A stretch of 64,000 bases of DNA from Labilithrix sp. (GTDB taxonomy: Bacteria; Myxococcota_A; Polyangia; Polyangiales; Polyangiaceae). The notes beneath the pieces are model-generated. The model was not told the DNA's origin and searched no databases. It was given only the letters and a program-made list of their open reading frames with translations. How positions within the stretch are numbered: position 1 is the first letter of the stretch; each line of letters starts with the position of its first letter. The stretch covers positions 25,044-89,043 of the forward strand of contig JAHBWF010000013.1 of NCBI GenBank assembly GCA_019637105.1. The letters are read 5' to 3'. Positions 40,757-61,401 of this stretch are shown here, one piece after another. Made by a program: the position numbers and the translations under genes.

Positions 40757-40848
40757 GGGATCATCCCTCGCGCCCGTTCGTGTAGCCGGCTTTCAGGCGG
40801 GCAACCAGGCCGTTCGCGCGATTGACACCCCGGCGCCCCTCGCGGACC

Positions 40849-45956: not shown

Positions 45957-46078
45957 CCCCCCGATGGAGCCCGACCAACCGCTCGAAGGTTGGTTTGGAT
46001 CCGGTCGCAAGTCAACGGCGCTGGGCCCTCCGCGGCGTCGCTCATTCGGATGGCACGTTCCTTCTACGACTCTTGAAC

Positions 46079-46084
46079 TATGCT
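46079..46084 (+). promoter_or_regulatory. putative -10 box (TATGCT) of the sugar transferase gene
   Basis: TATGCT lies six bases before GTG 46091 with no Shine-Dalgarno, fitting a leaderless transcript. Confidence 0.5.
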
Positions 46085-46090
46085 GGTCGT

Positions 46091-46810
46091 GTGCGTCCTC
46101 ACGTAGCGCTCGTGAAGCGGCTCATCGACGTGGTGGGCTCCGCCGCCGGCCTCGCGGCGACGCTGCCCCTCTACGTCCCGATCGCGGCGGCGATCCGCCT
46201 CGACTCGCCGGGCCCCGTCTTCTTCGTCCAGCGGCGCGCCGGCCGGCTCATCGAGGACGACGGCGATACGCCCCGCTGGACGACGTTCTCGATGATCAAG
46301 TTCCGTACGATGAACGTCGACGCCGAGAAGGGCGTGGGCGCGGTCGTCGCGGCGAAGAACGACCGGCGCGTGACCCGCGTGGGTCGCTTCCTGCGCGCGA
46401 CCCGCCTCGACGAGCTCCCGCAGTTCTGGAACGTCCTCCGGGGAGACATGTCCCTCGTCGGCCCGCGGCCCGAACGTCCCGAGCTCCTCGTCAACCTGGC
46501 GATGGCCATCCCGTTCTTCGAGGAGCGCACGCGCGGGATCAAGCCCGGCCTCACCGGGCTCGCGCAGGTCTCGCTCGGCTACACCGGCGCGCCGGACGAA
46601 GACAGCGAGGTCGCCAAGCTCAAGGCGACGCTGACCAACCCGTTCGGCATCGAGGAGGCGGAGGGCGCGCTCGCGGACGACATGCGCATCAAGCTCATGT
46701 TCGACCTCTCGTACGCGGCGGCCCTCGAGGACTTCTGGTCGTACCTCCGGATGGAAGCGCAGATCCTGGTGCAGACGCCGATCGTCATGCTGCTCTCGCG
46801 CGGGCACTGA
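46091..46810 (+). CDS. bacterial sugar transferase (initiating glycosyl-1-phosphate transferase)
   Basis: This 239-residue protein has one N-terminal membrane segment ('LIDVVGSAAGLAATLPLYVPIAAAI') and the PF02397-type catalytic part: 'DSPGPVFFVQRRAGR', 'FSMIKFRTMNVDAE', 'RFLRATRLDELPQFWNVLRGDMSLVGPRPE', seen as 'LRATRLDELPQFWNVLRGDM' and 'SLVGPRPE', and 'GIKPGLTGLAQV'. It is the short PglC-like form without the N-terminal bundle of WbaP. It would attach the first sugar phosphate to undecaprenyl phosphate and so start the EPS repeat. GTG 46091 is chosen because TATGCT sits six bases upstream. RsbW- and RsbV-like genes follow 30 bases downstream on the same strand. Confidence 0.93.
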   Translation: MRPHVALVKRLIDVVGSAAGLAATLPLYVPIAAAIRLDSPGPVFFVQRRAGRLIEDDGDTPRWTTFSMIKFRTMNVDAEKGVGAVVAAKNDRRVTRVGRFLRATRLDELPQFWNVLRGDMSLVGPRPERPELLVNLAMAIPFFEERTRGIKPGLTGLAQVSLGYTGAPDEDSEVAKLKATLTNPFGIEEAEGALADDMRIKLMFDLSYAAALEDFWSYLRMEAQILVQTPIVMLLSRGH

Positions 46811-46840
46811 GCCGCGGCGGGGTCCTCCTTGTGAGGGCCC

Positions 46841-47335
46841 ATGGCCACTGTTACGCTTCGCGCTTCGGCAGTCGTGATGGCGGAAGCGGCGAAGACACGT
46901 GCGACGAAGGGCTGCGTGACGCGGATGACCTTCCAGGTCGAGGCGTCGCTGCACCAGCGGCCGCTCGCGATCGAGCTCCTCTCCACGGTCATCGGCCACG
47001 TCTACGCGACGGATCGGATGTTCCGTCACGAGATGATCACGGCGTTCGGAGAGGCGTTCAACAACATCGTCATCCACGGTTACCGCGACAAGCCGGACGG
47101 CGTGCTCGACGTCGAGGCCGAGCTCACCGCCCACGAGATGACCGTACGGCTCATCGACAACGGCCGCGCCGTCGACTTCGGCGGCCTCGAGCCGCCGGAT
47201 CTCGGGAGCATGCCCGAGCGCGGCATGGGCGTGTACATGATCCACGCGCTCGTCGACGAAGTCGCGTATAGCGGAGGGACGCCGAACGTGCTGTCGCTCG
47301 TCAAACGAACCAACACAAGGCCAGATCCGAGATGA
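46841..47335 (+). CDS. RsbW-like anti-sigma factor / serine kinase (HATPase_c)
   Basis: This protein has up to 164 residues, the first ~28 being non-conserved. The GHKL ATPase domain shows an N-box 'AFGEAFNNIVIHGYR', a G1 box 'VRLIDNGRAVDF' and a G2 box 'PERGMGVYMIHAL', as in SpoIIAB/RsbW. It would bind ATP, phosphorylate its STAS partner and hold or release a target protein. GTGAGGG precedes ATG 46841. Its stop overlaps the ATG of the STAS gene (ATGA), the classic layout for partner-switching pairs. It lies 30 bases after the sugar transferase gene, probably in the same transcript. No sigma factor is adjacent. Confidence 0.9.
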   Translation: MATVTLRASAVVMAEAAKTRATKGCVTRMTFQVEASLHQRPLAIELLSTVIGHVYATDRMFRHEMITAFGEAFNNIVIHGYRDKPDGVLDVEAELTAHEMTVRLIDNGRAVDFGGLEPPDLGSMPERGMGVYMIHALVDEVAYSGGTPNVLSLVKRTNTRPDPR

Positions 47336-47634
47336 ACTGCGTGCGGACGGATGAGAACGGCGAATCGCGGCTCGAGATCGACGGCGCGCTCGACGCGCTG
47401 ACGGTCCGCGACATTCGACCCGTCATCGACGCCGTGGTCGCGGACCGTCCGCGCCGTGTGACGGTCGACATCGAGAAGCTGAACCTCATCGACAGCTCGG
47501 GCGTCGGCGCCATCGTCTCCCTCTTCAAGAGGGTCAAGGCCAACGGCGGGGTCGTCGTCGTCGTCGGGGCGAAGGAGCAGCCGCTCGCGGTGCTCAAGCT
47601 GTTGAAGCTCGACGCCGTGTTCGGCCTGACCTGA
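47332..47634 (+). CDS. RsbV/SpoIIAA-like STAS anti-anti-sigma factor
   Basis: This 100-residue STAS protein has 'LNLIDSSGVGAIVSLFKRVKANGG', where Ser55/Ser56 of the DSSG motif is the phosphorylation site, and 'VVVVGAKEQPLAVLKLLKLDAVF' ('KEQPLAVLKLLKLDAVF'), both typical of SpoIIAA. Unphosphorylated, it would bind the RsbW-like kinase and free that kinase's client; the SpoIIE-type phosphatase at 44175 would reactivate it. Translation is coupled to the kinase gene by the 4-base overlap. The client could be a sigma factor elsewhere or an EPS enzyme, given the location. Confidence 0.92.
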   Translation: MNCVRTDENGESRLEIDGALDALTVRDIRPVIDAVVADRPRRVTVDIEKLNLIDSSGVGAIVSLFKRVKANGGVVVVVGAKEQPLAVLKLLKLDAVFGLT

Positions 47635-49156: not shown

Positions 49157-50254
49157 TCACGTGTCCTCGTCGACGTCGAAGAGGTGCCACCGCCTCGTCT
49201 CCTCGAGCCGATCCCCGAGCGCGCCTCGACCGGCCTGGACGACCGCCGTACGGCTCTCCGCGCGTCGCTCGAAGCCGCGCTCCTCGAGCAGCGCCACGAT
49301 CTCCGGCGCGCCCAGGAGCCGGAGCGAGACGCTCACCGCCCCACGGCGCCAGAGCGCGGGCAGCAGGAGATCGAGGAGCGCGCCGAGGTCGCGCTTGTGT
49401 CCGAAGAGATCACGCACGTGGACGGCGCCCGTGGCGGGATCGCGCTCGACGACCGCGTAGGCGACGAGCTCGCCGCTCGTCCTCCGGACGAGCGTGGCCA
49501 CCTCCGGCGAGCGGCAGCGCCACGCGAGGAACGCGCTCGTCCGCTCCCCGACGATCTCGTACTCCGCGCGCGCGCGCTCCCAGAGCGCGTCGAAGCGCTC
49601 GTCGAAGCGCGTCTCCCAGACGAGCCGGTAGCGGACGCGCGCGCGCGCTACCGCCGGCGCGCTCATGGCGAGGCGCGCGAGATCGACGCCGACGCTGCCG
49701 ACGCGCACCAGCGCCGGGTGCTCGGCGGCGCGGAGGAGGAGCTCCGGCACGCCCTCGCGCTCCTTCAAGCGCGCGGCGTACGACGCGTGGCGCAGGACGC
49801 GCGCGTAACGCGCGGTCTTGCCGAGGACGCGGAAGCCGCCGCGCACCATCACGCCCTCGGCCTTCTTGTTGGGGAAGCCGTAGGTGACGTCGAAGTCCGA
49901 GAGCGCGAAGGCGTTGACCTCGCGGACCAGGCGGAGCGCGGGCAAGAGGCCTCGGTGGGCGGCGTCGACCGCGAGGTCGCTGGTGATGCCGGCGCGCCCG
50001 GTCGCGGCGCCGAGCTGGAAGCGCCGGACCGCGACGCCGTTGGCGCCGACGAGCGCGGCGCGACCGTCTGCGCCGCGCGCCCGGAGGACGAAGACGCTGT
50101 CCGCCGGCAGCGGCGCGTCCCGGTAGAGCCAGCGGAACTTCTCGTCGGGAGAGACGCCGAGCTTCAGGTTCTCGCGCCACAGCCGCAGGAGCTCGTCGCG
50201 GACGTCCTCGGGACGGACTCTCTCGACTTCGTAGGTGAAGCCCGGGCCGGCCAT
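49157..50254 (-). CDS. GNAT-family N-acetyltransferase (EPS-associated)
   Basis: This 365-residue protein has an N-terminal GNAT-like half: 'RLWRENLKLGVSPDEKFRWLYRDAP', 'GITSDLAVDAAHRGLLPALRLVREVNAFA' (the acetyl-CoA loop at 'VDAAHRGLLPAL'), and 'DVTYGFPNKKAEGVMVRGGFRVLG'. A second, more diverged acetyltransferase-like half carries 'LVAYAVVERDPATG' and 'LEERGFERR'. Similar proteins are common in EPS loci and probably acetylate an amino sugar or a linked amino acid. ATG 50254 is chosen over the upstream TTG because TAGCTT sits seven bases before it. It lies 33 bases after the stop-side of the lipoprotein gene at 50288 on the same strand. Confidence 0.75.
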   Translation of the reverse strand: MAGPGFTYEVERVRPEDVRDELLRLWRENLKLGVSPDEKFRWLYRDAPLPADSVFVLRARGADGRAALVGANGVAVRRFQLGAATGRAGITSDLAVDAAHRGLLPALRLVREVNAFALSDFDVTYGFPNKKAEGVMVRGGFRVLGKTARYARVLRHASYAARLKEREGVPELLLRAAEHPALVRVGSVGVDLARLAMSAPAVARARVRYRLVWETRFDERFDALWERARAEYEIVGERTSAFLAWRCRSPEVATLVRRTSGELVAYAVVERDPATGAVHVRDLFGHKRDLGALLDLLLPALWRRGAVSVSLRLLGAPEIVALLEERGFERRAESRTAVVQAGRGALGDRLEETRRWHLFDVDEDT

Positions 50255-50287: not shown

Positions 50288-52435
50288 TCAGAGCGGCTTG
50301 GCCTTTCGTCCCTTGCACTGGATGACGCCCCCGCGGACGCTCGGGAACGCGACGGCCGCCTCCTCGATCATGCGAAATTGCGCGAGCGAGCCGTTGAACC
50401 ACCAGGAGAGCCGCCGGGACGGGACGCTCACGTGGACGGGGTGCCCCAGGCTCTGGCGCTCGAGCCAGGCGGCCTGCGCTTTGTCGTCTCCGCGCGCGTA
50501 GCCGTCGGCGAGATCGTCGCTCTTCCACTTCCGCGGATCGCGCATCGGCCGCGTGTAGTGGCCGAACGCCCGCTTCGCGCAGTAGCTGAGCTCGTGGTGG
50601 AGGCCGACGAAGGACTCGCCCTCGGACTTGAACGGCCCCACGCCGGGGGCGTCGAACGCCCGCTGGCGCTTGAGCGCGCGGATCCCGGCGGCCGTGAGCG
50701 CGGTGGCGTCGGCGCAGTGCTCGACGTCCGACCCCTCCGCGAAGCCGCGGCGCTTGCCGTTCGGGGCGATCCCGAAGCCGTAGGCGGGGACGAGCAGACG
50801 CGCGTCGTCGAAGTCCGCGTCGGCCTCGAAGCACGCGTGCGGATCGAGGAACGGATCGCCCTTCGGCTCGCCCTCGACGACGTACTCGGCGCCCGCGTCG
50901 CGCAGCGACCGCGTGAGGCGGACGAAGATCTCGTCGACGCGCGGGTCTCCCGTCAGCTCCTGGTAGCGGAGGAGCGGGTCGACCAGCATCTCGGCCATCC
51001 ACCCCGAGCACCACGGATCGGTCGCGTCGCCCTCCGAGTGCTGCTCGGCGCTGTGGATGAAGCAGTCCTGCGGCGGGAAGCGGACCTTGGTGATCGCGGC
51101 GAGCTCGGCCGGGTTCTTCGTCGTCACGTGCCGGTAGGCCGTCTCGAAGAGCTCGCGGAACGCCGTGAGGTAGCGCGCGTCCCCGAAGAGGAGAAACCCG
51201 TAGATCATCGCCTCCATGTCGACGGCGAGGAGGCGCTCGGTCCACAGCTTGTCGGCGGCGCGCACCGAGCCCTTGCGGTACGGCAGCGCGAACGTCTGCT
51301 CGTTCAGCCACATCTCGGCGATCGCCTTCGCCGCGGCCTTCGCGGCCTCGTCGCCGGTGAGCGCGTAGTACATGTAGAGCCCGCGGACGTGCGAGTACTT
51401 CGTGTCGGGATCGGGCTTCCCCGAGAAGATCCCGGCGCGGGCTCCCGAGGTCTCGATCTTCGAGCCGTAGTAGGAGCACGACCTGAGCGCGTGGCGCAGG
51501 TGATGCGGCGCGGAGAGGTGCGCGTACGCGAGGAGGAACGTCGCGCAGCGATCGTAGAGCCAGCCCTCGTAGTTGGTCACCGGGTCGGCGACCGACTCGG
51601 GCTTGAGCGGGTAGCCCTCGCGCCCGAGCGCGGCCTCGACGAACGGCCCGAGGTTGTCCGAGAGGTACGTGAGGCCCTTGAGCGACGCGTTCGCGTCGAG
51701 GTCCTCGCGGCTCAAGAGGCCGTTCCAGACGTGCGTGTCCGTGAGGTACGAGCTCGGGAACGTCGCGAGCACCGTCGGCTCCCAGCCCGTGAAGAGCGTC
51801 TTCGTGTAGGCCTTCTTCACGACGAGCCGGTAGGGCGCCACCGGGTGCTTGTCCTTCTCGACGGCGCGCTCGGCGAGCTCGACGGTCTCCGGCGAGGCGA
51901 ACTTCACCTGCGCGTAGGGCTCCACGCCGCCCACCGGCGCGCCGGGGCCGGCGCCGCTCCAGATGACGTCGACGTCGATCGCCGGCTTGCTCATGACCGC
52001 CGCGGGGAGCTGGATCAAGAGAGAGCGCGCGCCCGCTTGCTTGCCGAGCTCGTCGTAGTCGAAGAGGATCGGGCTGACGCGCAGCCCCTCGACGTTGGCC
52101 GGCGCGCCCTTGACGCGCACGCGGACGGCCGCGGGGTCCACGCGGACCGCGCGCGGGACCGGGACGCCGAACGACACGACCTTGCCGCCGTCGGCGATGC
52201 GCTCCAGGTGCACGACGACGCTCCCCGTGAAGACGGCGCGCGCCGCGGGAGGGGGCGACGGCTTGGAGGCCCCCAGCGGTCGCGGCGGGGGCGGCGGCGT
52301 GTACGACGTCGGCGGCGCGCTCGCCGACGCGGGCCCCTCGACCGCCGGAGACGGCTTGTTGCACCCCGCGACGGCCCACGGCGCGACGGCCGCGCTGCAC
52401 GCGAGGATCGCGAGGGAGGCGTCGAAGGTGCGCAT
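50288..52435 (-). CDS. large lipoprotein with possible glycan lyase/hydrolase (alpha-toroid) fold
   Basis: This protein is about 715 residues. The signal peptide has lipobox 'PWAVAGC', then a Pro-rich linker to about residue 65. The first domain ('VVSFGVPVPRAVRVDP', 'SLLIQLPAAV') resembles the beta-sandwich of exo-rhamnogalacturonan-lyase-like proteins. The remaining ~500 residues are helix-rich with Trp, Tyr and His repeated in helix turns ('YEGWLYDRCATFLLAYAHL', 'SHVRGLYMYYALTGDEAA', 'DPWCSGWMAEML'), as in (alpha/alpha) toroid enzymes. It could cut or edit the EPS at the cell surface. ATG 52435 is chosen for the signal peptide and the TATCGT eight bases upstream. Family assignment is tentative. 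Confidence 0.6.
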   Translation of the reverse strand: MRTFDASLAILACSAAVAPWAVAGCNKPSPAVEGPASASAPPTSYTPPPPPRPLGASKPSPPPAARAVFTGSVVVHLERIADGGKVVSFGVPVPRAVRVDPAAVRVRVKGAPANVEGLRVSPILFDYDELGKQAGARSLLIQLPAAVMSKPAIDVDVIWSGAGPGAPVGGVEPYAQVKFASPETVELAERAVEKDKHPVAPYRLVVKKAYTKTLFTGWEPTVLATFPSSYLTDTHVWNGLLSREDLDANASLKGLTYLSDNLGPFVEAALGREGYPLKPESVADPVTNYEGWLYDRCATFLLAYAHLSAPHHLRHALRSCSYYGSKIETSGARAGIFSGKPDPDTKYSHVRGLYMYYALTGDEAAKAAAKAIAEMWLNEQTFALPYRKGSVRAADKLWTERLLAVDMEAMIYGFLLFGDARYLTAFRELFETAYRHVTTKNPAELAAITKVRFPPQDCFIHSAEQHSEGDATDPWCSGWMAEMLVDPLLRYQELTGDPRVDEIFVRLTRSLRDAGAEYVVEGEPKGDPFLDPHACFEADADFDDARLLVPAYGFGIAPNGKRRGFAEGSDVEHCADATALTAAGIRALKRQRAFDAPGVGPFKSEGESFVGLHHELSYCAKRAFGHYTRPMRDPRKWKSDDLADGYARGDDKAQAAWLERQSLGHPVHVSVPSRRLSWWFNGSLAQFRMIEEAAVAFPSVRGGVIQCKGRKAKPL

Positions 52436-52443
52436 CGGCTCGA

Positions 52444-52449
52444 ACGATA
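52444..52449 (-). promoter_or_regulatory. putative -10 box (TATCGT) of the 50288-52435 lipoprotein
   Basis: TATCGT lies eight bases before ATG 52435; no Shine-Dalgarno is present. Confidence 0.4.
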
Positions 52450-52571
52450 CCACGCGCCCGCGGACGTTCGAGTCACCCGAAGGAGCTCTTGCGCGGCCTC
52501 GCCTCCTCGCACGAATCTGCCACGAGCCGCCCGTTCGCGCGGCATGATGCGTCCGGCTTCGGCCCGAGCCC

Positions 52572-54221
52572 ATGAACTACAACCAGCTCTCGTTCTGGAT
52601 CTTCTACTTCACGGTGCTGGTCGCCTACTGGCGGCTGCCGCACCGGAAGCAGAACACGCTGATGCTCGTCGCGAGCTACGTGTTCTACGGCTTCTGGGAC
52701 TACCGCTTCCTCTTCCTCATCCTCGTCTCGACGGTGATCGACTTCATCGGCGGGCTCGGGGTGGCGGGGATCGAGCTCCCGGCCGGCCGGCTGCGGCGCC
52801 TCTTCTTGATCCTCGTCGGCGGCGCGCTCGTCTTGTGCAGCCACGTCGACTACCCGGCCCTCTTCGAGGCGCTGAGGCGCGGCGACGGAGGCGCCGCCGC
52901 GCTCGCGCTGCCGCGGCGGCTCGCGGACTTCTACGTCCCGATCGGCGCCGCCGTCGCGTGCGCCGGCTACGGCCTCGCGCTGCCGCGGCTCTACGCGCTC
53001 GCCGAGCGGCGGCGGCGCGTCGTCTTCCTGGCGATCAGCATGGTCGCGAACCTCGCGATCCTCGCCTTCTTCAAATACTGCGATTTCTTCATCGCGAGCT
53101 TCGTCGACCTCGCGCGCGCGCTCGGCGCGCGGGACGTGAGCGTCGGCGTCCTCGGGATCGTGCTCCCCGCGGGGATCAGCTTCTACACGTTCCAGGCGAT
53201 GAGCTACACGGTGGACATCTACCGGAAGGAGACCGAGCCCACCACGCACCTCGGTGACTTCGCGCTCTTCGTCTGCTTCTTCCCGCACCTCGTCGCGGGG
53301 CCGATCATGCGGGCGCACACGCTCCTGCCGCAGGTGCTCCGGCCGCGCAGGCTCGCGCCCGGCGCCTTCGAGGAGGGGCTCGTCCTCGTGCTCGTCGGCC
53401 TCTTCAAGAAGATGGTGATCGCCGACAACATGGCGCCCATCGCCAACGCCGTCTTCTACCGCTTCCAGGACGGCGACGCGGGCGGGATGAGCGGCGGCGA
53501 GGCGCTCGTCGGGCTCTACGCGTTCGCCTTCCAGATCTACGGCGACTTCTCCGGCTACTCGAGCATCGCGCGCGGCATCTCGAAGTGGCTCGGCTTCGAG
53601 CTCGTCGTGAACTTCCACAACCCGTACGTCGCCGTCAGCCCGAGCGACTTCTGGCGGCGCTGGCACGTCAGCCTCTCGTCGTGGCTGCGCGACTACCTGT
53701 ACATCCCGCTCGGCGGCAACCGCGGCGGGAAGCTCATGGAGTACCGGAACCTCATGCTCACGATGCTCCTCGGCGGGCTGTGGCACGGGGCGAGCTGGAC
53801 GTTCGTGGCGTGGGGCTTCTACCACGGCGCGATCCTCTGCGTCTTCCGGCTCCTGCGCGTCAAGGACCCCGCGCCGAGCGACCGGCTCCGCTGGCTCGTC
53901 CGGGTGGTCGTCATGTTCCACCTGACGTGCCTCGGGTGGCTCTTCTTCCGCGCGGACAGCTTCCGCACGGTGATGGAGATGAGCGTCCTCATCGCGACCG
54001 ATCTCCGGCTCACGCCGGCGGCGCTCGCCGCAGCCGGGCTCATCGTGTTCCACTGCGCGGCGCTCTTCGTCGTCGAGCTCTTCACGGACGGCGAGAACGC
54101 GCTCGGTCGCCTCATCCGCGCGCCCTGGCCCCTCCAGGGCGCGTTCTACTCGTACCTCGTCGCGATGATCTCCCTCTTCGGCGCGGAGCAGGCCATTGCC
54201 TTCATCTACTTCCAGTTCTGA
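52572..54221 (+). CDS. MBOAT O-acyltransferase (AlgI/DltB-like)
   Basis: This 549-residue protein has about eleven membrane helices. The core is intact: 'GISFYTFQAMSYTVDIYRKE', 'FPHLVAGPIMRAHTLLPQ', 'NPYVAVSPSDFWRRWHVSLSSWLRDYLYIPLGGNR' (seen as 'SDFWRRWHVSLSSWLRDYLY'), and catalytic 'MLLGGLWHGASWTFVAWGFYHG' ('GGLWHGASWTF'). Between helices 3 and 4 it has extra residues. It would pass an acyl group across the inner membrane to a periplasmic acceptor such as the EPS. The SGNH-like gene overlaps its 3' end by 26 bases, the standard AlgI/AlgJ or DltB/DltD-like arrangement. The start ATG has no strong ribosome-binding site. Confidence 0.93.
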   Translation: MNYNQLSFWIFYFTVLVAYWRLPHRKQNTLMLVASYVFYGFWDYRFLFLILVSTVIDFIGGLGVAGIELPAGRLRRLFLILVGGALVLCSHVDYPALFEALRRGDGGAAALALPRRLADFYVPIGAAVACAGYGLALPRLYALAERRRRVVFLAISMVANLAILAFFKYCDFFIASFVDLARALGARDVSVGVLGIVLPAGISFYTFQAMSYTVDIYRKETEPTTHLGDFALFVCFFPHLVAGPIMRAHTLLPQVLRPRRLAPGAFEEGLVLVLVGLFKKMVIADNMAPIANAVFYRFQDGDAGGMSGGEALVGLYAFAFQIYGDFSGYSSIARGISKWLGFELVVNFHNPYVAVSPSDFWRRWHVSLSSWLRDYLYIPLGGNRGGKLMEYRNLMLTMLLGGLWHGASWTFVAWGFYHGAILCVFRLLRVKDPAPSDRLRWLVRVVVMFHLTCLGWLFFRADSFRTVMEMSVLIATDLRLTPAALAAAGLIVFHCAALFVVELFTDGENALGRLIRAPWPLQGAFYSYLVAMISLFGAEQAIAFIYFQF

Positions 54222-55161
54222 CCTCGACCGGGACGCGCCGCGGTGGAGCCGGGGCACGGCCGCGCGCATCGCGCTCGTCGTGGCCGCCGTCCTCCTCGTC
54301 CTCGAGGTGGTCACGCGGACGAAGCTCTTCGCGATGTCGAAGGACTTTCGGCACTTCATGGGCTTCGCCGAGGCCGCGACGGCGCTCGATCACGGCGTCG
54401 CGTTCGTCGGCAACTCCGCGACCCGGCTCGGGGTCGACCCGGCGATCGTCGCGCGCGAGCTCGGCGACGCGAAGGGCGAGGCCGTCACCGCCGACGTCTT
54501 CACCGCCGACGCGTCGAGGATCAACACCTGGCACTACATCCTCGAGAGCACGTTCTGGCGGCCGGGGAAGAGGCCGCGCCTCGTCGTGCTCACGTTCTAC
54601 GAGGACGATCTCGCCGACGGCAACCGGATCGAGATCGGCCGCGTGGCGCAGTTCTTCACGACGACGCGCGACTGGCCCGACGTGTTCCGCGTCGACCTCC
54701 CGACCTTCGGCGAGCGCACGGAGTTCGTCGTCTCGTCGGCCTGGGCGACCTACGCGGCGCGCGCGCGCATCCGCGAGCGCACGCTCCGGCTCATCCCCGG
54801 CTACGAGCCGTACGCCGCCGCCCAGAACGACGTGGTCTTCAAGCACGAGCGCGCGCGAGAGGCCGCGGCGCGCCCGGAGCTCACGCACGTCGCGCTCCAC
54901 CGGCTCCTGCGCCGCGCCGCCGAGGAGGAGACCCGCCTCTGCTTCGTCGCCTACCCGACGCTCGAGGCGGCCCAGGGCGAGCCGTACCCGATCGACACGG
55001 CCGGGCGCGCCGCGGTCGAGGCCGCCGGCATGAGGTTCATCGACCTCCGCCGCGTCGACGGGCTCGGGCCCGAGCTCTACGACGACGACGTCCACCTCAA
55101 CGAGGCCGGGCGCGCGCTCTACAGCGCGGTCCTGGCCGACGCGCTCCGCGAGGCGCTGTGA
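54196..55161 (+). CDS. SGNH-like membrane-anchored protein (AlgJ/AlgX/DltD-type partner)
   Basis: This 321-residue protein has one N-terminal helix ('AARIALVVAAVLLVLEVVT') and then a periplasmic domain with 'HGVAFVGNSATRLGVDP', where the Ser of GNS is the expected nucleophile, and C-terminal 'DDVHLNEAGRALY', an Asp-x-x-His pair. These are the catalytic blocks of SGNH esterases and transferases. With the MBOAT it would complete acyl transfer to the polymer. The start is TTG 54196 with CGGAGCAGG upstream, inside the MBOAT gene; the next Met would remove the anchor. Diverged middle sequence prevents a finer family call. Confidence 0.75.
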   Translation: MPSSTSSSDLDRDAPRWSRGTAARIALVVAAVLLVLEVVTRTKLFAMSKDFRHFMGFAEAATALDHGVAFVGNSATRLGVDPAIVARELGDAKGEAVTADVFTADASRINTWHYILESTFWRPGKRPRLVVLTFYEDDLADGNRIEIGRVAQFFTTTRDWPDVFRVDLPTFGERTEFVVSSAWATYAARARIRERTLRLIPGYEPYAAAQNDVVFKHERAREAAARPELTHVALHRLLRRAAEEETRLCFVAYPTLEAAQGEPYPIDTAGRAAVEAAGMRFIDLRRVDGLGPELYDDDVHLNEAGRALYSAVLADALREAL

Positions 55162-55185
55162 GACGCCGAGCGCCCGGCTTCCTGG

Positions 55186-55191
55186 TAGGCT
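55186..55191 (+). promoter_or_regulatory. putative -10 box (TAGGCT) of the DUF362 gene
   Basis: TAGGCT lies seven bases before ATG 55199, with no Shine-Dalgarno. Confidence 0.4.
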
Positions 55192-55198
55192 GCCGCCG

Positions 55199-56587
55199 AT
55201 GAGCTCGGACGCTCGGCGGCGGCGACGACTCCTCTCGCGGCGCAAGGCGCTCGCGGCCGGAGCCGCGCTCGGCCTCGGCGCCTTCGCCTACGGCCTGCGC
55301 CGCCGGCTGACGTCGCGGCTCGCGTCGCTCACGCAGCTCGCGTCGTTCACGGCGACGCCTCCGCTCGTGCCGCACGACCCGACGCGCGACCGCACGCGCA
55401 TCTGCGTGGCGGAGGGCGGGACCCCGGGCGAGAACGTCGACGCCGTCCTCGCGAAGGTCGGCGGCGTCGCGGCGCTCGTGGGGACGGACGACGTCGTCAT
55501 CGTCAAGATCAGCGCGCAGTGGTGGAACCAGGGGATGACCAACGTCGCCGCGGTGAAGCGGCTCGTCGAGCGCGTGCTCGAGCGCCCCGGCTTCGCCGGC
55601 GAGGTCATCGTCTTCGAGAACACGCACTTCCGCCTCGCCGACGGCTCCGGGCTCGCGCGCGCGTTCACGCACCCGTCGGAGCGGAACGTCGACGTCCCCG
55701 GGTGGAACAAGCTCGGCGATCTGGTCGCGCACTTCCGCGAGCGGGACGCCGCGGTGAGCTTCGTCGGCCTCGTCGACGCCGGGCCGAGCGAGCTGTCCGG
55801 CGACGACTGGCACGATCGCGGCCACGCCCACGGCACGTACGGCGGCGACGGCCGCGGGCCGATCCCCGCGGGCGACGCGCGCGACGGCTACCACTGGGAC
55901 TTCGAGCGCGCGTTCCGGCTCGCGCGGAGCTGGGTCGACGAGGCGCGCACGCCCCTCACCTGGCCGCGCTTCACCTCGCCGCGCACGGGGCTCGTCGTCG
56001 ACCTCAAGGACGGCGTCATGCGGCGCACCGACGCCGGCCTCGTCCCGGCCGGCCGGAAGCTCGTGTGGATCAACATGACGACGGCGAACGAGCACACCGC
56101 CACCGGGATCACCGGCGCCTGCAAGTCCACGATGGGCGTCGTCGACATGAGCGCCGGCGCGCTCGGGACGCACCCGCTCGCGCGCGGCTACGCGTCGGTG
56201 CACTACTTCGGCCGCGGCAACCCGACGGCGAGCTGGCGCATGGCGGGCCCGCTCGCGCACTTCGCGCGCGAGGTCCGCGCGCCGGATCTGATCCTCCTCG
56301 TCGCGGAGTGGATCGCGTACGAGCCCGCCGGCTTCGACGCCGAGCGCGAGGACACGCGCCACTCGGCCGCGAGCTGCGTGAACACGAAGACGATCGTCGC
56401 CGGGACGGACCCGGTCGCGATCGACGCCTGGGCCGTGCGGCACCTGATGACGCGCGCGCCGAGCGTGAACAAGGAGACCGACCTCGATCTGGACGACCCG
56501 GACTCGAAGGTCAGCAAGTTCCTCCGCTACTACCGGCAGGTCTACGGCAAGGGCACGCTCGATCCCGCGCTCGTCGAGGTCGCCTGA
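55199..56587 (+). CDS. DUF362 family protein with twin-arginine-like leader
   Basis: This 462-residue protein starts with 'RRRRRLLSRRKALAAGAALGLGAFAYG', a basic leader with an RR pair before a hydrophobic core ('SRRKALAAGAALGLGAF'), suggesting Tat export or anchoring. DUF362 features follow: 'DDVVIVKISAQWWNQGMTNVAAVKRLVERV', in pieces 'VVIVKISAQWWNQGMTN', 'GEVIVFENTH', 'VVDLKDGVMRR', 'TGACKSTMGVVDMS' and 'TIVAGTDPVAIDAW'. No ferredoxin Cys cluster is visible. DUF362 proteins are found in several modification loci, but their activity is undefined. It is 37 bases after the SGNH-like gene and 22 before the NAD-synthase-like gene. Confidence 0.82.
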   Translation: MSSDARRRRRLLSRRKALAAGAALGLGAFAYGLRRRLTSRLASLTQLASFTATPPLVPHDPTRDRTRICVAEGGTPGENVDAVLAKVGGVAALVGTDDVVIVKISAQWWNQGMTNVAAVKRLVERVLERPGFAGEVIVFENTHFRLADGSGLARAFTHPSERNVDVPGWNKLGDLVAHFRERDAAVSFVGLVDAGPSELSGDDWHDRGHAHGTYGGDGRGPIPAGDARDGYHWDFERAFRLARSWVDEARTPLTWPRFTSPRTGLVVDLKDGVMRRTDAGLVPAGRKLVWINMTTANEHTATGITGACKSTMGVVDMSAGALGTHPLARGYASVHYFGRGNPTASWRMAGPLAHFAREVRAPDLILLVAEWIAYEPAGFDAEREDTRHSAASCVNTKTIVAGTDPVAIDAWAVRHLMTRAPSVNKETDLDLDDPDSKVSKFLRYYRQVYGKGTLDPALVEVA

Positions 56588-56609
56588 GGCGACCGGAGAG
56601 AAAGAGAAG

Positions 56610-57587
56610 ATGGCGTTTTCAGCAGACGTACTGAAGCTCGACACCAAGAGAGAGGTCGAACGGATCACCGCGGCGCTGCGCAAGCAGGTCGGGCAGGTCC
56701 TCAGGCGGCGCGGCGCCGTGATCGCGCTGTCCGGCGGCATCGACTCCAGCGTCGTCGCGGGGCTCTGCGCGAGGGCCTTCGGGCCCACGAAGTGCCAGGG
56801 GCTCCTCATGCCCGAGCGCGACTCGTCGGAGTCGACGCTCGCGCTCTCACGATCGGTCGCCGAATCGTTCGGGATCCCGTTCGTGCTCGAGGACATCTCG
56901 ACGACCCTCGACGCCATCGGCTGCTACCGGCGCCGCGACGAGGCCATCGAGCAGGTGGTCCCCGACTACGGCCCCGGCTACAAATCGAAGATCGTGCTCC
57001 CGGGCGCGCGCGCGGGCGCCGACTACAACGTCTACTCGATCGTCGTCGAGCGCCCGGACGGGACGATCGAGAAGCACCGCCTGCCGCTCGAGCCGTACCT
57101 CCAGATCGTCGCCGCGACGAACTTCAAGCAGCGCGTCCGCAAGACGCTCGAGTACTACTGGGCCGACAAGCTCCACTACGTGTGCACCGGGACGCCGAAC
57201 CGCCTCGAGTACGATCAGGGCTTCTTCGTGAAGAACGGCGACGGCGCCGCGGACGTGAAGCCGATCGCCCACCTGTACAAGACGCAGGTCTACGCCATGG
57301 CCGCCGAGCTCGGCGTGCCGGAGGCCGTGCGGAGCCGCCCGCCGACGACGGACACGTACTCCCTCGCGCAGGGGCAGGACGAGTTCTACTTCGCCCTCCC
57401 GTACGCCGAGATGGACCTCTGTCTGTACGGGAAGAACAACGGCGTCCCGCCGGCGGAGGTCGCGAAGGCCGCGAAGCTCACGACCGAGCAGGTCGAGTGG
57501 GTCTACGGCGACATCGACAAGAAGCGCGCGACGACGCGGTACCTGCACGAGCGCCCGCTCCTCGTCGAGAAGCCGCTCGAGGTGTAA
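56610..57587 (+). CDS. NAD(+) synthase-like ATP-dependent amidotransferase (ammonia type)
   Basis: This 325-residue protein has the PP-loop 'VIALSGGIDSSVVAGLCARAFG' ('LSGGIDSSVVAGL'), 'ATNFKQRVRK', 'CTGTPNRLEYDQGFFVKNGDGAADVKPIAHLYKTQV' (core 'GTPNRLEYDQGFFVKNGDG'), and 'RPPTTDTYSLAQGQDEFYF', matching NadE. No glutaminase domain is present. It is about 50 residues longer than E. coli NadE, with an insert around residues 125-160. A housekeeping NadE would not be expected here, so it may amidate a different adenylated carboxylate in EPS modification, with the asparagine-synthase-like protein. GGAGAGAAAGAG is the ribosome-binding region. Confidence 0.82.
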   Translation: MAFSADVLKLDTKREVERITAALRKQVGQVLRRRGAVIALSGGIDSSVVAGLCARAFGPTKCQGLLMPERDSSESTLALSRSVAESFGIPFVLEDISTTLDAIGCYRRRDEAIEQVVPDYGPGYKSKIVLPGARAGADYNVYSIVVERPDGTIEKHRLPLEPYLQIVAATNFKQRVRKTLEYYWADKLHYVCTGTPNRLEYDQGFFVKNGDGAADVKPIAHLYKTQVYAMAAELGVPEAVRSRPPTTDTYSLAQGQDEFYFALPYAEMDLCLYGKNNGVPPAEVAKAAKLTTEQVEWVYGDIDKKRATTRYLHERPLLVEKPLEV

Positions 57588-57647
57588 CCCGGCGTCGTCG
57601 CGATCGCCGCTCCGCGAGGCGGCGCGCCCCGGGCCGAGCCGGCGCGG

Positions 57648-57908
57648 TCAGGCGCCGTTCTTCTTGTTCACGACGAACTTCGCGATCGACGCGATCGAGC
57701 CGAAGTTCTCCGCCGCGAGCTCCTCGTCCGCCGTCTGGATCCCGAAGCTCTCCTCGAGGAACGAGACGATCTCGAGGATCCCGGTGGAGTCGACCAGACC
57801 GCTCTGCACGAGCTGCTGGTCGGGGGACGGCGCCGCCGAGGCGTCCCCGAAGAGGAAATTCTCGACGATGAACCTTCCGATTTGCCCCTGGACCTCGACG
57901 TCGTTCAC
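57648..57908 (-). CDS. acyl carrier protein (phosphopantetheine carrier)
   Basis: This 86-residue, acidic, four-helix carrier has 'QSGLVDSTGILEIVSFLEESFGI'; Ser41 in 'VDSTGI' is the phosphopantetheine attachment site. It is slightly diverged from fatty-acid ACP, which has DSLDxVE here, and closer to the carriers of DltC-like and EPS-linked systems. It would hold the acyl or aminoacyl group activated by the AMP-dependent ligase at 59884. It is divergent from the asparagine-synthase gene, with 32 bases between starts. The GTG start has TATACT six bases upstream and no Shine-Dalgarno. Confidence 0.92.
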   Translation of the reverse strand: MNDVEVQGQIGRFIVENFLFGDASAAPSPDQQLVQSGLVDSTGILEIVSFLEESFGIQTADEELAAENFGSIASIAKFVVNKKNGA

Positions 57909-57914
57909 GCGCTG

Positions 57915-57920
57915 AGTATA
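57915..57920 (-). promoter_or_regulatory. putative -10 box (TATACT) of the carrier-protein gene
   Basis: TATACT on the minus strand lies six bases before the GTG start. The opposite strand reads TATATC at 57917-57922, so the divergent asnB-like gene may use an overlapping promoter. Confidence 0.55.
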
Positions 57921-57940
57921 TCAAAACCGCAGACCAGAAC

Positions 57941-59887
57941 ATGTGTGGCGTCGCCGGCATCGTCCATCTCCCGTCGATCGCGGCGCGCGCCACGAGCGAC
58001 CCGCGGCCCACCGCCGACGCGCTGCGCGCCATGGCGTCGGCGCTGAAGCACCGCGGCCCGGACGGCGACGGCGTCCTCGTCGACGGCGACGCGGGCCTCG
58101 CCCACACCCGGCTGGCGATCATCGATCCCGCGGGGGGCGCGCAGCCGATGCAGCTCCCGGAGCGGAGGCTCGCGCTCGTCTTCAACGGCGAGGTCTACAA
58201 CTACGTCGAGCTGCGGGGAGAGCTGACGAAGGCCGGCCACGTCTTCCGGACGAAGAGCGACACCGAGGTCGTCCTCCGCGCGCTCGCCGAGTGGGGCGAC
58301 GACGCGCTGACGCGCTTCAACGGCCAGTGGGCGATCGCGCTGTGGGACGGCGCGCGACGGCGGCTGCTCCTCGCGCGCGATCGCGTCGGCATCCACCCGC
58401 TCTACTACGCCGAGGCGGCCGAGCGCGTCGTCTTCGCGAGCGAGGTCAAGGCGATCTTCGCGGCCGATCCGGCGCTCCGGCGCGGGATCGATCCGATCGG
58501 CCTCGACCAGACCTTCACGTTCTGGGCGGCGATCGCCCCGCGGACGGTCTTCCGCGGCGTCTCCGAGCTCCCGCCCGGACGCGTCCGCGTCTACGAGGAA
58601 GGCCGCGTCGCGGAGCGGGCCTTCTTCCGACACGATTTCACGCCGCGCTTCCAGGGATCCATCGCGGACGCGGAGGCCGCCGTCCAGGGAGCGCTCGAGA
58701 AGGCGACCGCGCTCCGCATGCTGCGCGCCGACGTGCCCGTGGGCTGCTACCTCTCGGGCGGGCTCGACAGCTCGCTCGTCTCGGCGCTCGGCCTGCGCGC
58801 GAAGGGCGAGCGCTTCCACACGTTCTCGCTCCGGTTCGCCGACGCCGAGTTCGACGAGACCGAGTACCAGCGCGCGGTGGCGCGCGCGCTCGGCACCGAG
58901 CACCACGAGGTCGTGGTCACCCGCGAGGACATCGCGCGCGTCTTCCCGACGGTCGTGCGTCACGCCGAGCGCCCGCTCCTGCGGACGGCGCCGGCGCCGC
59001 TCCTCCTCTTGTCGAAGCTCGTCGCGGACCTCGGGACGAAGGTGGTGCTCACGGGCGAAGGCGCCGACGAGGTCTTCGGCGGCTACGACCTCTTCCGCGA
59101 GGGCCGCGTGCGGCGCTTCTGGGCGCGACACCCGGAGTCGAAGCTCCGCCCGCTCCTCCTGCAGCGGCTCTACCCGTACCTCGCGCGCTCGCCGGTGGCG
59201 CAGCGCTCGATGGCCGTGCAGTTCTTCGGCCGCGACCTCGCCTCGTACCGCGAGCCCGGCTTCGCGCACGGCACGCGCTGGAGCACCACCGCCGCGCTCA
59301 AGCGCATGGTCGCCCCCGACCTCCGGCCGCCGCCGGGGACCGACGCGGTCCGGGCCCTCCGCGACGAGCTCCCGGCGGAGCTCGCCGGCTGGACCCCGCT
59401 CGCGCAGGACCAGTACATCGAGATCCTCACGCTGCTCGGCCCCTACCTGCTCGGCTCGCAAGGCGACCGGATGCTCATGGCGAGCTCGGTCGAGGGGCGC
59501 TTTCCGTTCCTCGATCCCGACGTGGTCGATCTCGCCAACAGCCTCCCGGACGCCTACAAGCTCCGCGTCCTCGACGAGAAGCACGTGCTCAAGCGCGTCG
59601 CGGCGCCGCTCGTTCCGCGCGAGGTCGCCGCGCGCAAGAAGCAGCCCTACCGCGCGCCGGACGCGACGTCGTTCGTCACCCCGAGCGCCCGCGCCGAGAT
59701 CGACGAGCTCCTCTCGCGCGAGGCCGTCGCGAAGAACGGCGTCCTCGACGCCGGCGGCGTGCAGGCGCTCTGGAAGAAATGCAAGGCGAACGCCGGCGGC
59801 GGCGCGTTCTCGAACACCGACAACATGGCGCTCGTCGCCGCCGTCTCCACCCAGCTCCTGTGCCGCGAGCTGCTCGGGGCGTCGTGA
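57941..59887 (+). CDS. asparagine-synthase-like glutamine amidotransferase (AsnB family)
   Basis: This 648-residue protein begins 'MCGVAGIVHLP', with the catalytic Cys2 of the glutaminase domain, followed by 'LKHRGPDGDGVLVDG', 'RLAIIDPAGGAQPMQL' and 'LVFNGEVYNYVELR'. The synthetase domain has the PP-loop 'VGCYLSGGLDSSLVSAL', 'LTGEGADEVFGGYDLF' and 'SVEGRFPFLDPDVVDLA'. All catalytic parts are intact. In EPS loci this family amidates activated carboxylates (uronic acids or amino acids) rather than making asparagine for the cell. It is coupled to the AMP ligase by a GTGA overlap and divergent from the carrier-protein gene. Confidence 0.93.
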   Translation: MCGVAGIVHLPSIAARATSDPRPTADALRAMASALKHRGPDGDGVLVDGDAGLAHTRLAIIDPAGGAQPMQLPERRLALVFNGEVYNYVELRGELTKAGHVFRTKSDTEVVLRALAEWGDDALTRFNGQWAIALWDGARRRLLLARDRVGIHPLYYAEAAERVVFASEVKAIFAADPALRRGIDPIGLDQTFTFWAAIAPRTVFRGVSELPPGRVRVYEEGRVAERAFFRHDFTPRFQGSIADAEAAVQGALEKATALRMLRADVPVGCYLSGGLDSSLVSALGLRAKGERFHTFSLRFADAEFDETEYQRAVARALGTEHHEVVVTREDIARVFPTVVRHAERPLLRTAPAPLLLLSKLVADLGTKVVLTGEGADEVFGGYDLFREGRVRRFWARHPESKLRPLLLQRLYPYLARSPVAQRSMAVQFFGRDLASYREPGFAHGTRWSTTAALKRMVAPDLRPPPGTDAVRALRDELPAELAGWTPLAQDQYIEILTLLGPYLLGSQGDRMLMASSVEGRFPFLDPDVVDLANSLPDAYKLRVLDEKHVLKRVAAPLVPREVAARKKQPYRAPDATSFVTPSARAEIDELLSREAVAKNGVLDAGGVQALWKKCKANAGGGAFSNTDNMALVAAVSTQLLCRELLGAS

Positions 59888-61401
59888 CGACGCTCTACGA
59901 CCTGCTCGAGCGCCACCGGCGCGCGGGGGCCGATCGGCCGCTGCTCGTCACGCCCGACGGCGCGTACAGCTCCGACGACGTCGAGAGAGAGAGCGCGCGC
60001 GTGGCCGCCTGGCTGCGCGACGCGGGGCTCGCGCCGGGCGATCGCGTCGTCGTCGACCTGAAGAACGGCTTCGACGCCGTCGCCGCGCTCTTCGGCGCCT
60101 CGCGCGCGGGCGCCGTCGTCGTCGGCGCGACGCCGCAGTGGACGGTCCCGCAGATCGCCCACGTCGTCGCCGACAGCGGGGCGCGCTTCCTCGTGACGAA
60201 CGACCTCCGCGCGAAGCAGCTCGGCGCGAAGCGCCCGCCGAACGTGCTCGTCCGCGGCGCGACGACGGACGGCGTCGTGCCGTGGGCGTCGCTCACGGCG
60301 TCGTGGGACGGACAGGCGCCGACCGACCCGAGCTCCCCGGCGATCCTGATCTACACCTCGGGCTCGACCGGATCGCCGAAGGGCGTCGTGCACCCGCACG
60401 CGAACCTCGTCGATTTCGCGCGCATCGTCTCGGGCTACCTCGAGAACACGGCCGACGATCGGCTGATGTGGCTGCTCGGCTGGAGCTTCGGCTACGGGCT
60501 CTCGCAGCTCTTGACGATGTGCGCGACCGGCGGCCGCCTCATCGTCCCCGCGTCGATGCTCGCGGCCGACGTCGTGAAGGCGCACGAGGAGCACGCCGCG
60601 ACGGCGATCGCGCAGGTGCCGCACGGCTGGGACCAGCTCGTCGGCTTCCTCGAGAAGACCGACCGGCGGCTCGCCGGCCTCCGCTACGTCACGAACGCCG
60701 GCGACGGCCCCTCGCTCGCGCTGCTCGACCGCCTCGAGCGCGCGCTGCCGGGCGCGAAGATCGTGCTGATGTACGGCCAGACCGAGTGCCTGCGCACGAC
60801 CTACCTGCCGGCCGATCGCTTCGAGGACAAACGCGGCGCGATGGGCTTCCCCGTCCCCGGCGTCGACGTCTTCGTCGTCGACGAGCGCGGCGAGCTGTGC
60901 GCCGACGACGAGCCGGGCGAGCTCCTCCACCGCGGCGCGCTCCTCTCGGCCGGGTACTGGAACGCCCCCGAGGCCACGGCGGCGAAGATCCGACCCGAGC
61001 CGTGCCTCCGCGATCGCATCGGCGACGAGCCCGTGCTTCATACGGGCGACGTCGTCCGCCGCGACGCCGACGGCTGCCTCTGGTACGTCGGGCGCTCGGA
61101 GCGGATGATCAAGTCGTCGGGGTTCCGCTTCGGGCCCTCGGAGATCGAGGCGATCCTCCTCGCCGCCCCGGAGGTGCGCGAGGCGCTCGTCTTCGGCGTC
61201 GACGATCCCACGCTCGGCCAGGCCGTCGAGGCCGCCGTGGTCACGTCCGAAGGCAGCGCGGACGCGGGCGCGCTCCTGCTCGAGGCTCGGAAGCAGCTCC
61301 CGCGCTACATGGTCCCGCGCCGCGTCCACTTCGTCGCCGAGATCCCGCGGAACGCCAACGGCAAGGTGAGGCTCGACGCCCTCCGCGCGCTCGCGCGCTG
61401 A
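59884..61401 (+). CDS. AMP-dependent acyl/aminoacyl ligase (EPS-associated)
   Basis: This 505-residue ANL-superfamily enzyme has the P-loop 'LIYTSGSTGSPKGVVHPH', 'VLMYGQTECLRT', 'VLHTGDVVRRDADGCLWYVGRSERMIKSSGFR' (core 'HTGDVVRRD', 'GRSERMIKSSGFR') and the C-terminal catalytic Lys in 'NANGKVRLDAL'. It would adenylate a carboxylic acid and load it onto the carrier protein at 57648 or CoA. With the MBOAT and SGNH-like genes it supplies the DltA-like step. The start is GTG 59884, overlapping the asnB-like stop by 4 bases. It is the last gene of the EPS locus and converges with a lipoprotein gene, 40 GC-rich bases away. Confidence 0.93.
   Translation: MTTLYDLLERHRRAGADRPLLVTPDGAYSSDDVERESARVAAWLRDAGLAPGDRVVVDLKNGFDAVAALFGASRAGAVVVGATPQWTVPQIAHVVADSGARFLVTNDLRAKQLGAKRPPNVLVRGATTDGVVPWASLTASWDGQAPTDPSSPAILIYTSGSTGSPKGVVHPHANLVDFARIVSGYLENTADDRLMWLLGWSFGYGLSQLLTMCATGGRLIVPASMLAADVVKAHEEHAATAIAQVPHGWDQLVGFLEKTDRRLAGLRYVTNAGDGPSLALLDRLERALPGAKIVLMYGQTECLRTTYLPADRFEDKRGAMGFPVPGVDVFVVDERGELCADDEPGELLHRGALLSAGYWNAPEATAAKIRPEPCLRDRIGDEPVLHTGDVVRRDADGCLWYVGRSERMIKSSGFRFGPSEIEAILLAAPEVREALVFGVDDPTLGQAVEAAVVTSEGSADAGALLLEARKQLPRYMVPRRVHFVAEIPRNANGKVRLDALRALAR

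Follow-up and report, generated by a model that had tools for sequence, protein, structure and literature searches.

Among the described systems that most resemble the locus considered here is the Dlt system for D-alanylation of teichoic acids, in which DltB takes carrier-bound D-alanine with an FXYXXF motif located on a separate protein, DltX; other MBOAT-SGNH systems are carrier-free and carry the hexapeptide as a fusion at the C-terminus of the MBOAT protein, and acetylation of the PatA tyrosine from acetyl-CoA has been shown (PMC12148441). In the Vin system, which supplies the vicenistatin starter unit, the ligase VinN loads methyl-aspartate onto the carrier VinL, where VinO decarboxylates it (PMC11284099). 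We focus here on a stretch of 64,000 nucleotides from Labilithrix sp. (assembly GCA_019637105.1, contig JAHBWF010000013.1, positions 25,044 to 89,043 of the forward strand; hereafter the window), in which genes for a ligase, an acyl carrier protein (ACP), an MBOAT acyltransferase and an SGNH-like protein lie together in an exopolysaccharide (EPS) locus. The initial annotation read these four as the same roles as DltA, DltC, DltB and DltD. Comparison with other loci shows that the ligase, the ACP, an AsnB-type amidotransferase and the NadE paralog NadE2 are one co-conserved unit, a conclusion that is well supported. The Dlt-like quartet, on the other hand, is an adjacency in two close relatives, since the MBOAT and SGNH-like genes are missing from the corresponding locus of a third genome and from other module loci. 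The genes concerned are as follows.

52572-54221, + strand: MBOAT O-acyltransferase (PF03062, 81.5 bits; WHG at 404-406; C-terminal FIYFQF)
54196-55161, + strand: SGNH-like membrane-anchored protein (motifs GNS 72-74, D297 and H300; N-terminal hydrophobic anchor)
55199-56587, + strand: DUF362 protein (PF04015, 40.8 bits; Tat-like N-terminus, a motif recognised by eye)
56610-57587, + strand: NadE paralog NadE2 (PRK00876; NF002048, 502 bits, cut-off 313)
57648-57908, - strand: ACP (phosphopantetheine Ser41 in DSTG; weak ACP-family matches)
57941-59887, + strand: AsnB-type glutamine amidotransferase (TIGR01536, 476 bits, cut-off 267; Cys2 and SGGLDS)
59884-61401, + strand: stand-alone AMP-forming ligase, VinN/TIGR03098-like (PF00501, 246 bits; pocket residues Gly203, Leu303 and Arg304)

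Translation and family scans place these genes where the initial annotation had put them; its AsnB-like, NAD-synthase-like and DUF362 genes match TIGR01536, NF002048 and PF04015, and the Ser41 site that it assigned to the ACP does lie inside the DSTG motif. All named genes in our list of frames scored by GC content at third codon positions (GC3) are coding-like; the ligase frame is outside that list.

Since the NF002048 family is distinctive, NadE2 was used as bait for module loci. In 59 genomes of the window's order, including that of the window (G000), there are 21 full-length NadE2 copies, and the 20 other neighbourhoods, several of them on short contigs, were searched by tblastn and with hidden Markov models (HMMs). 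A further set, drawn from many phyla, holds 80 NadE2 loci, the best 80 of 563 confirmed relatives when ranked by similarity to the same-order alignment. Two loci, L068 and L024, are one contig, and the 100 loci thus hold 99 distinct ones; both are counted in the residue, pocket, distance and cluster tallies below. With thresholds of 350 bits for the ligase, 300 for AsnB and 60 for the ACP, all three partners lie within 10 kb of NadE2 in 59 of the 80 further loci (69 have AsnB, 69 the ligase and 67 the ACP), and they do so in 43 of the 55 loci that extend more than 7 kb beyond NadE2 on both sides. The 20 same-order loci contain AsnB in 15 cases, the ACP in 15 and the ligase in 14; 12 have all three and three have none. 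By comparison, 20 stretches of 20 kb, picked arbitrarily by hand in genomes of the window's order, yield no partner at these thresholds (0/20), with a single weak ligase match of 24 bits. The pairwise distance matrices of the four core proteins correlate over 66 loci, best for NadE and AsnB (r=0.71) and at 0.46-0.49 for the pairs that involve the ligase, and none of 2000 permutations reached these values, host relatedness not being controlled. The records that carry the module are titled as myxobacteria, planctomycetes, acidobacteria, verrucomicrobia, alphaproteobacteria and actinobacteria, and an AcpS-like gene is present in nine of the 80 further loci. This supports the proposal of the initial annotation that an acid is activated, possibly amidated and carried on the ACP. 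It had named independent scatter of the genes in orthologous loci as evidence against its reading: the MBOAT and SGNH-like genes do scatter, and the ligase, ACP, AsnB and NadE2 do not. The function of the four-gene unit is something that we infer from the sequences of its members. No description of this unit was found in the literature searched, whose coverage leaves out most subscription journals; two asparagine synthetase genes are mentioned for an EPS cluster that is conserved among floc formers (PMC9012009), and PMC1569441 mentions none of ligase, amidotransferase, NAD synth, carrier protein, asparagine or decarboxylase.

A separate observation concerns L120, a locus from a record titled Bacillus subtilis SK6B4: it has the NadE2 module, and its ligase pocket is identical to that of L110 from Pseudochrobactrum, the contig probably being mislabelled or contaminated.

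NadE2 is an N-type ATP pyrophosphatase without a glutaminase domain. It shares with NH3-dependent NadE the P-loop SGGxDS and the motif GFF.K.GDGA.D, kept here as SGGIDSS and GFFVK.GDGA.D. It differs from NadE in three ways: a family-specific insertion of ~50 residues follows residue 102, between two stretches that align to NadE 2e18, and has Y106 and K127 in 48 of 48 sequences; the gene is accessory, only 18 of the 235 genomes searched in the phylum having an NF002048 match above cut-off; and it is linked to a ligase and an ACP. A second NAD-synthase match in the window's genome lies on C212. In the AsnB family, Cys2 is present in 78/78 and SGGxDS in 79/79 sequences that have those columns, and the second-best model of the window protein is TIGR03108 (389 bits, under the cut-off of 817). 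The ACP gene is on the strand opposite its neighbours, an arrangement relative to NadE that recurs in three of 47 ACP matches in the 55 well-flanked loci. In the ACP alignment, window included, D40 and S41 are found in 83/83 sequences, T42 in 82/83 and G43 in 81/83. Its best match in the PDB is a peptidyl carrier protein (2my5, 2e-13), followed by several ACPs, with DltC chains at E 0.008-0.5; it is also weakly similar to ornithine-lipid and cispentacin ACPs.

The ligase has TIGR03098 as its best NCBIfam model (424 bits, under the cut-off of 592). When its whole length is compared with the PDB, the first rows are two-domain nonribosomal peptide synthetase (NRPS) chains with summed scores (LgrA with 263.9, of which its best single domain gives 149.1, and 8xjz with 223.9 from two stretches), and VinN comes next with 201.5 bits in one stretch. 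For the pocket region, VinN is the nearest solved relative of both the window ligase (E 7.4e-23; next protein 5.9e-11) and the L097 ligase (E 1.2e-37; next protein 3.1e-19), and the MYGQTECLR of the window has MYGQTEC-R in common with the MYGQTECKR of VinN. The VinN residue that binds the amine is D230, and its K330/R331 are located in a shortened beta13-beta14 loop (PMC11253843). DltA is described as coordinating the D-alanine amine with D197 among other residues. The equivalent of VinN Arg331, Arg304, is present in 84 of 84 ligases, that of the window included, and may read a second carboxylate of the substrate; K330 is replaced by Leu303 in the window ligase. We take DltA D197 to be the counterpart of GrsA D235 and of ligase position 203. 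This position, which corresponds to VinN D230, is Asp in 37 of the 84 ligases and otherwise V (14), C (12), G (11), N (4), S (3), T (2) or A (1); the window ligase and those of its nearest relative G004 (locus L021) and of G007 (locus L022) have Gly and lack the VinN-type amine-binding Asp. Because the window ligase has Gly where VinN and DltA have the amine-holding Asp, D-alanine-like aminoacylation by it appears unlikely, and the pocket comparison with DltA suggested in the initial annotation goes against its Dlt analogy. The window resembles the VinN/VinL/VinO system in its nearest solved ligase pocket and its stand-alone ACP, and in the Vin system it is a pyridoxal phosphate (PLP) decarboxylase that acts on the carrier-bound acid. 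The window, on the other hand, has two amidotransferases instead of the decarboxylase, D230 changed to Gly and K330 to Leu, and no polyketide synthase (PKS) gene recognised nearby.

A comparable ligase-ACP pair occurs with a decarboxylase in the same genome. Contig C266 (L171) encodes a ligase that reaches 581 bits with TIGR03098, together with an ACP and a TIGR03099-like, XrtA-type PLP decarboxylase (418 bits), with no NadE2 or AsnB match in its 19.8 kb, and a ligase and ACP accompany a TIGR03099-like decarboxylase also in the congener G006. Over the order, TIGR03099 has matches at E<=0.001 in 138 of 145 genomes, mostly to unrelated decarboxylases and none above cut-off. Eight high-scoring neighbourhoods (one a short contig, others cut) contain the ACP in eight cases, the ligase in five, AsnB in one and NadE2 in none. 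As similar ligase-ACP pairs occur either with a decarboxylase or with AsnB and NadE2, analogy suggests two fates of a carrier-bound acid, whose second carboxyl may be lost or may be amidated. The exosortase-A-associated (XrtA) EPS set of ligase, ACP and decarboxylase (TIGR03098/TIGR03099/TIGR03108) provides the best model for the window ligase and the second-best for AsnB. Unlike that set, the window proteins score below the curated cut-offs, NadE2 replaces the decarboxylase, and there is no exosortase match (0 to TIGR04178 at E<=1 in the window's genome, an assembly that is 91.5% complete).

The MBOAT and SGNH-like genes are facultative neighbours of this unit, common O-acylation genes that form a module separate from the core. 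MBOAT matches are present in 57 of the 59 same-order genomes and matches to the SGNH-like protein in four, one of them weak, G000 being included in both counts. The MBOAT, the window-type SGNH and the secreted lipoprotein occur in one of the 20 same-order loci, namely L021 of G004, which is 90-93% identical to the window. The MBOAT and window-type SGNH are in 0 of the 80 further loci, searched with single-sequence HMMs at E<=1e-3, of which that for the MBOAT catches diverged MBOATs at 286-512 bits and that for the SGNH may miss distant ones. L022 of G007 has the order GNAT, DUF362, NadE2, ACP, AsnB, ligase and is otherwise syntenic with the window; its GNAT and DUF362 matches are 137 bp apart, and it is in this interval that G000 and G004 have the lipoprotein, MBOAT and SGNH genes. 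In the NadE2 genomes beyond G000 and G004, none of the MBOAT matches listed is on a NadE2-bearing contig. The closest MBOAT-SGNH pair outside the two sister genomes is on contig C259 of G017 (MBOAT 54%, SGNH 32%); this genome has no full-length NadE2, and no module gene is found in the 12.4 kb around the pair, a region that on its MBOAT side stops ~1 kb short of the end of the contig. Nor is a module gene present in seven further MBOAT neighbourhoods, one of them around another MBOAT from the window's genome and some contig-cut.

In itself, the pair is of the PatAB/AlgIJ kind, with WHG at 404, a fused C-terminal FxYxxF and an adjoining SGNH gene, the last recognised by motif only. The MBOAT ends in FIYFQF (from residue 544, its last six residues), the acyl-shuttle motif of PatA-type MBOATs, and FxYxxF stands at the extreme C-terminus of all 12 MBOATs of L145-L156, the window's included. 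The SGNH-like gene overlaps the MBOAT gene by 26 bp: its TTG start lies just upstream of the MBOAT motif codons, which its first codons overlap, and the SGNH homologue of G017 has the same first residues behind an ATG. Its motifs GNS (residue 72) and DDVH (297) are conserved in two homologues. The window pair is like PatA-PatB/AlgI-type pairs in the FxYxxF fused to the MBOAT and in an overlapping SGNH-like gene whose product has S, D and H residues and a hydrophobic anchor at its N-terminus; it differs in that its SGNH protein matches no model or solved structure. The SGNH-like assignment in the initial annotation is thus matched in motifs and overlap, but not in Pfam or the PDB, neither of which gives a hit. 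No component passes a Dlt family test: the ligase reaches 121.7 bits with the DltA model TIGR01734 (cut-off 559.9) and the MBOAT 150 bits with the DltB model TIGR04091 (cut-off 375); the ACP is not among the four genome matches to the DltC model TIGR01688 (cut-off 52.4) at E<=10, nor is that model in the ACP's family list at E<=0.001; and the DltD model PF04914 has 0 genome matches at E<=10. The window and the Dlt system are alike in the adjacency, in two genomes, of ligase, carrier, MBOAT and SGNH roles. They differ in that the window's shuttle motif is fused to the MBOAT and Dlt's is on DltX, and in that the window's MBOAT and SGNH genes are not conserved with the carrier. With the pair beside the module in only G000 and G004 of the genomes examined, the Dlt analogy is not supported, and co-occurrence and family tests lead us to reject a Dlt cassette as a single unit.

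Further genes of the window lie to the left of those listed above.

49157-50254, - strand: GNAT-like protein, candidate cytoplasmic acyl transfer enzyme (homologues near NadE2 in other loci)
50288-52459, - strand: secreted lipoprotein-like protein (no family matched)
28316-29671, - strand: 'CapK' gene (PF00501, 18 bits, below the threshold of 29.9)
EPS-type genes left of the module: sugar transferase at 45995; glycosyltransferases at 29698 and 39572; Wzy_C at 32065; deacetylase at 40822
41891: Wzz-like protein (identity by sequence reading; no Pfam match)

The EPS setting of the window genes is supported: the sugar transferase, glycosyltransferase, Wzy_C and deacetylase genes agree with the EPS locus of the initial annotation. 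A gene is also present where that annotation had a CapK enzyme, but its PF00501 match stays below threshold. Neighbour-gene counts over the loci come from clustering cleaned of wrong-frame shadows, with clusters named by reading their representatives; family scans back the names tested (exosortase, FemAB, nucleotide-sugar dehydrogenase, AcpS, FabH-like, HemK-like methyltransferase and GNAT). A cluster that looked like GNAT in 62 loci was rejected, being mostly NadE in other reading frames. EPS marker genes, named from cluster representatives, occur in 40 of the 80 further loci and in 31 of the 53 that span at least 18 kb, and the commonest non-core neighbour cluster, in 28 of 100 loci, resembles a sugar transferase. 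EPS is thus the commonest visible setting of NadE2 loci and not one shown for all. DUF362 is found in two same-order loci (L021 and L022, at the same place) and in two of the 80 further ones. GNAT homologues lie near NadE2 in three same-order and six further loci by tblastn or HMM (seven of 80 by clustering); that of L065 passes PF13527 by 0.6 bit and that of L085 reaches PF00583, and the window GNAT-like protein has no family match of its own. The secreted lipoprotein-like protein, likewise without a family match, is absent from the G007 locus and found with the MBOAT-SGNH pair in G000 and G004. Proteins that are possibly SGNH-like but of another kind (e.g. L058:2668-3912) occur, without an MBOAT, in 16 of the 80 loci; a D-x-x-H-L-N-like end motif is present in 15 of the 16 and the block-I pattern tried in two, the L058 protein has no Pfam match, and their SGNH nature is a guess from sequence.

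Within the EPS locus, a FHA-GAF-SpoIIE phosphatase, an RsbW-like HATPase and a STAS protein flank the sugar transferase (window 44175-47634), a partner-switching regulator; 17 of the 100 NadE2 loci, a duplicate among them, have an FHA-SpoIIE-like cluster.

Our preferred reading, to which we give about an even chance, is of two modules, the core making an amidated EPS substituent via the ACP and the MBOAT-SGNH pair carrying out O-acylation alongside it. The ligase would adenylate a small acid and load it onto the ACP, as homology to VinN/VinL indicates. The acid is probably a dicarboxylate without a VinN-type amine, because the invariant Arg304 fits a second acidic group and the ligases of the window, G004 and G007 have Gly in place of the Asp. 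AsnB, using glutamine, and NadE2, using ammonia that is perhaps channelled from AsnB, would then form a carboxamide in an ATP-dependent manner, and the amidated acyl could be passed to an EPS sugar, plausibly by the GNAT-like protein. In the second module, the MBOAT would take a cytoplasmic acyl donor and transfer the acyl to the tyrosine within its C-terminal FIYFQF, from which the SGNH protein would hand it to the polysaccharide. We infer these catalytic steps, the substrate, the order of steps and the acceptor alike.

Other explanations give the same genes different tasks. AsnB-type uronamide synthases of O-antigens are known, and AsnB and NadE2 could amidate a sugar uronic acid to a uronamide while the ligase and ACP add an unrelated acyl, the linkage reflecting decoration of the same sugar. 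The distance correlations, which are best for NadE and AsnB while the ligases diverge and switch pocket, agree with this, as do a nucleotide-sugar dehydrogenase cluster in 10 of 100 loci (nine distinct, that of L024 confirmed by family scan) and an epimerase-like cluster in 10; most module loci, however, are without the dehydrogenase cluster, and there is no such dehydrogenase among the 37 Pfam-scanned proteins of the window, which do not include every window gene. On balance we consider the uronamide unlikely. We attach a low probability to a diffusible small molecule or lipid as the module's product, with the position in EPS loci incidental. VinN, which the ligase resembles, comes from an antibiotic pathway, the ACP has its weak likeness to ornithine-lipid and cispentacin ACPs, a FabH-like protein occurs in four loci and EPS markers are confined to half of the further loci; against this, no PKS/NRPS megasynthase was recognised among the 38 recurring clusters listed, which were named by reading, and the commonest non-core cluster is the sugar-transferase-like one.

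A true Dlt-like route, decidedly improbable in our view, would have the ligase load the ACP, the MBOAT take the acyl from it and the SGNH protein esterify the EPS, with AsnB and NadE2 only tailoring the acyl. It would account for the four roles lying adjacent in the window and G004, for the MBOAT's 150 bits with the DltB model and its match to solved DltB (E ~1e-28), and for the weak match of the ACP to DltC, although this (E 0.008) ranks behind the peptidyl carrier protein and several ACPs. It does not fit the absence of the pair from L022 and from the 80 other loci, its presence in G017 without full-length NadE2, the lack of DltA, DltC and DltD membership, an MBOAT that, like those of CoA-using systems, has the shuttle motif fused to it, or a ligase without the amine-binding Asp. 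That NadE2 is an ordinary NAD synthase, in EPS loci by chance, is scarcely credible: NCBIfam does name the family NAD(+) synthase and the P-loop and GDGA motifs are kept, but the genome has its second NAD-synthase match on C212, few genomes of the phylum exceed the cut-off, the insertion is conserved, and the linkage to ligase, ACP and AsnB extends across phyla.

Several points weigh against the two-module reading. Arg304 was dropped as a sign of amidation, the ligases of decarboxylase loci having it too. The pockets of the ligases vary from locus to locus, so that it is uncertain whether all loci make the same amide, and the amidotransferases could have other substrates. No partner is above threshold in five of the 80 further loci, two of which are short contigs with partial matches, and the controls were drawn from the window's order only, not from all phyla. 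The acceptor may not always be EPS, because an EPS marker accompanies NadE2 in 40 of the 80 loci only; and because other-kind SGNH-like proteins are found in 16 of them, acyl transfer outside the cytoplasm may be more widespread than the second module alone would indicate.

We put forward more tentatively, and with somewhat more doubt than confidence, that the core represents an undescribed and phylum-spanning carrier-bound amidation. A repurposed NAD synthase would here amidate an acid tethered to the ACP, as the amide counterpart of VinO/XrtA decarboxylation, and the resulting amidated acyl would decorate surface polysaccharides, in the window's genus beside an MBOAT-SGNH pair and possibly as the first Gram-negative ACP-fed version of Dlt. 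Such chemistry, if true, would mean a widespread and so far unread class of amidated surface-glycan substituents, and would correct the NCBIfam annotation of NadE2 as 'NAD(+) synthase'.

Two further features of the window lie away from these genes. A frame of 1492 aa at 3662-8140 combines ACR_tran (15-1017) with OEP (1312-1481), apparently a resistance-nodulation-division (RND) pump fused to its outer-membrane channel. At 12008-14828, an imelysin-like peptidase M75 adjoins an HTTM/vitamin K-dependent gamma-carboxylase-like protein.

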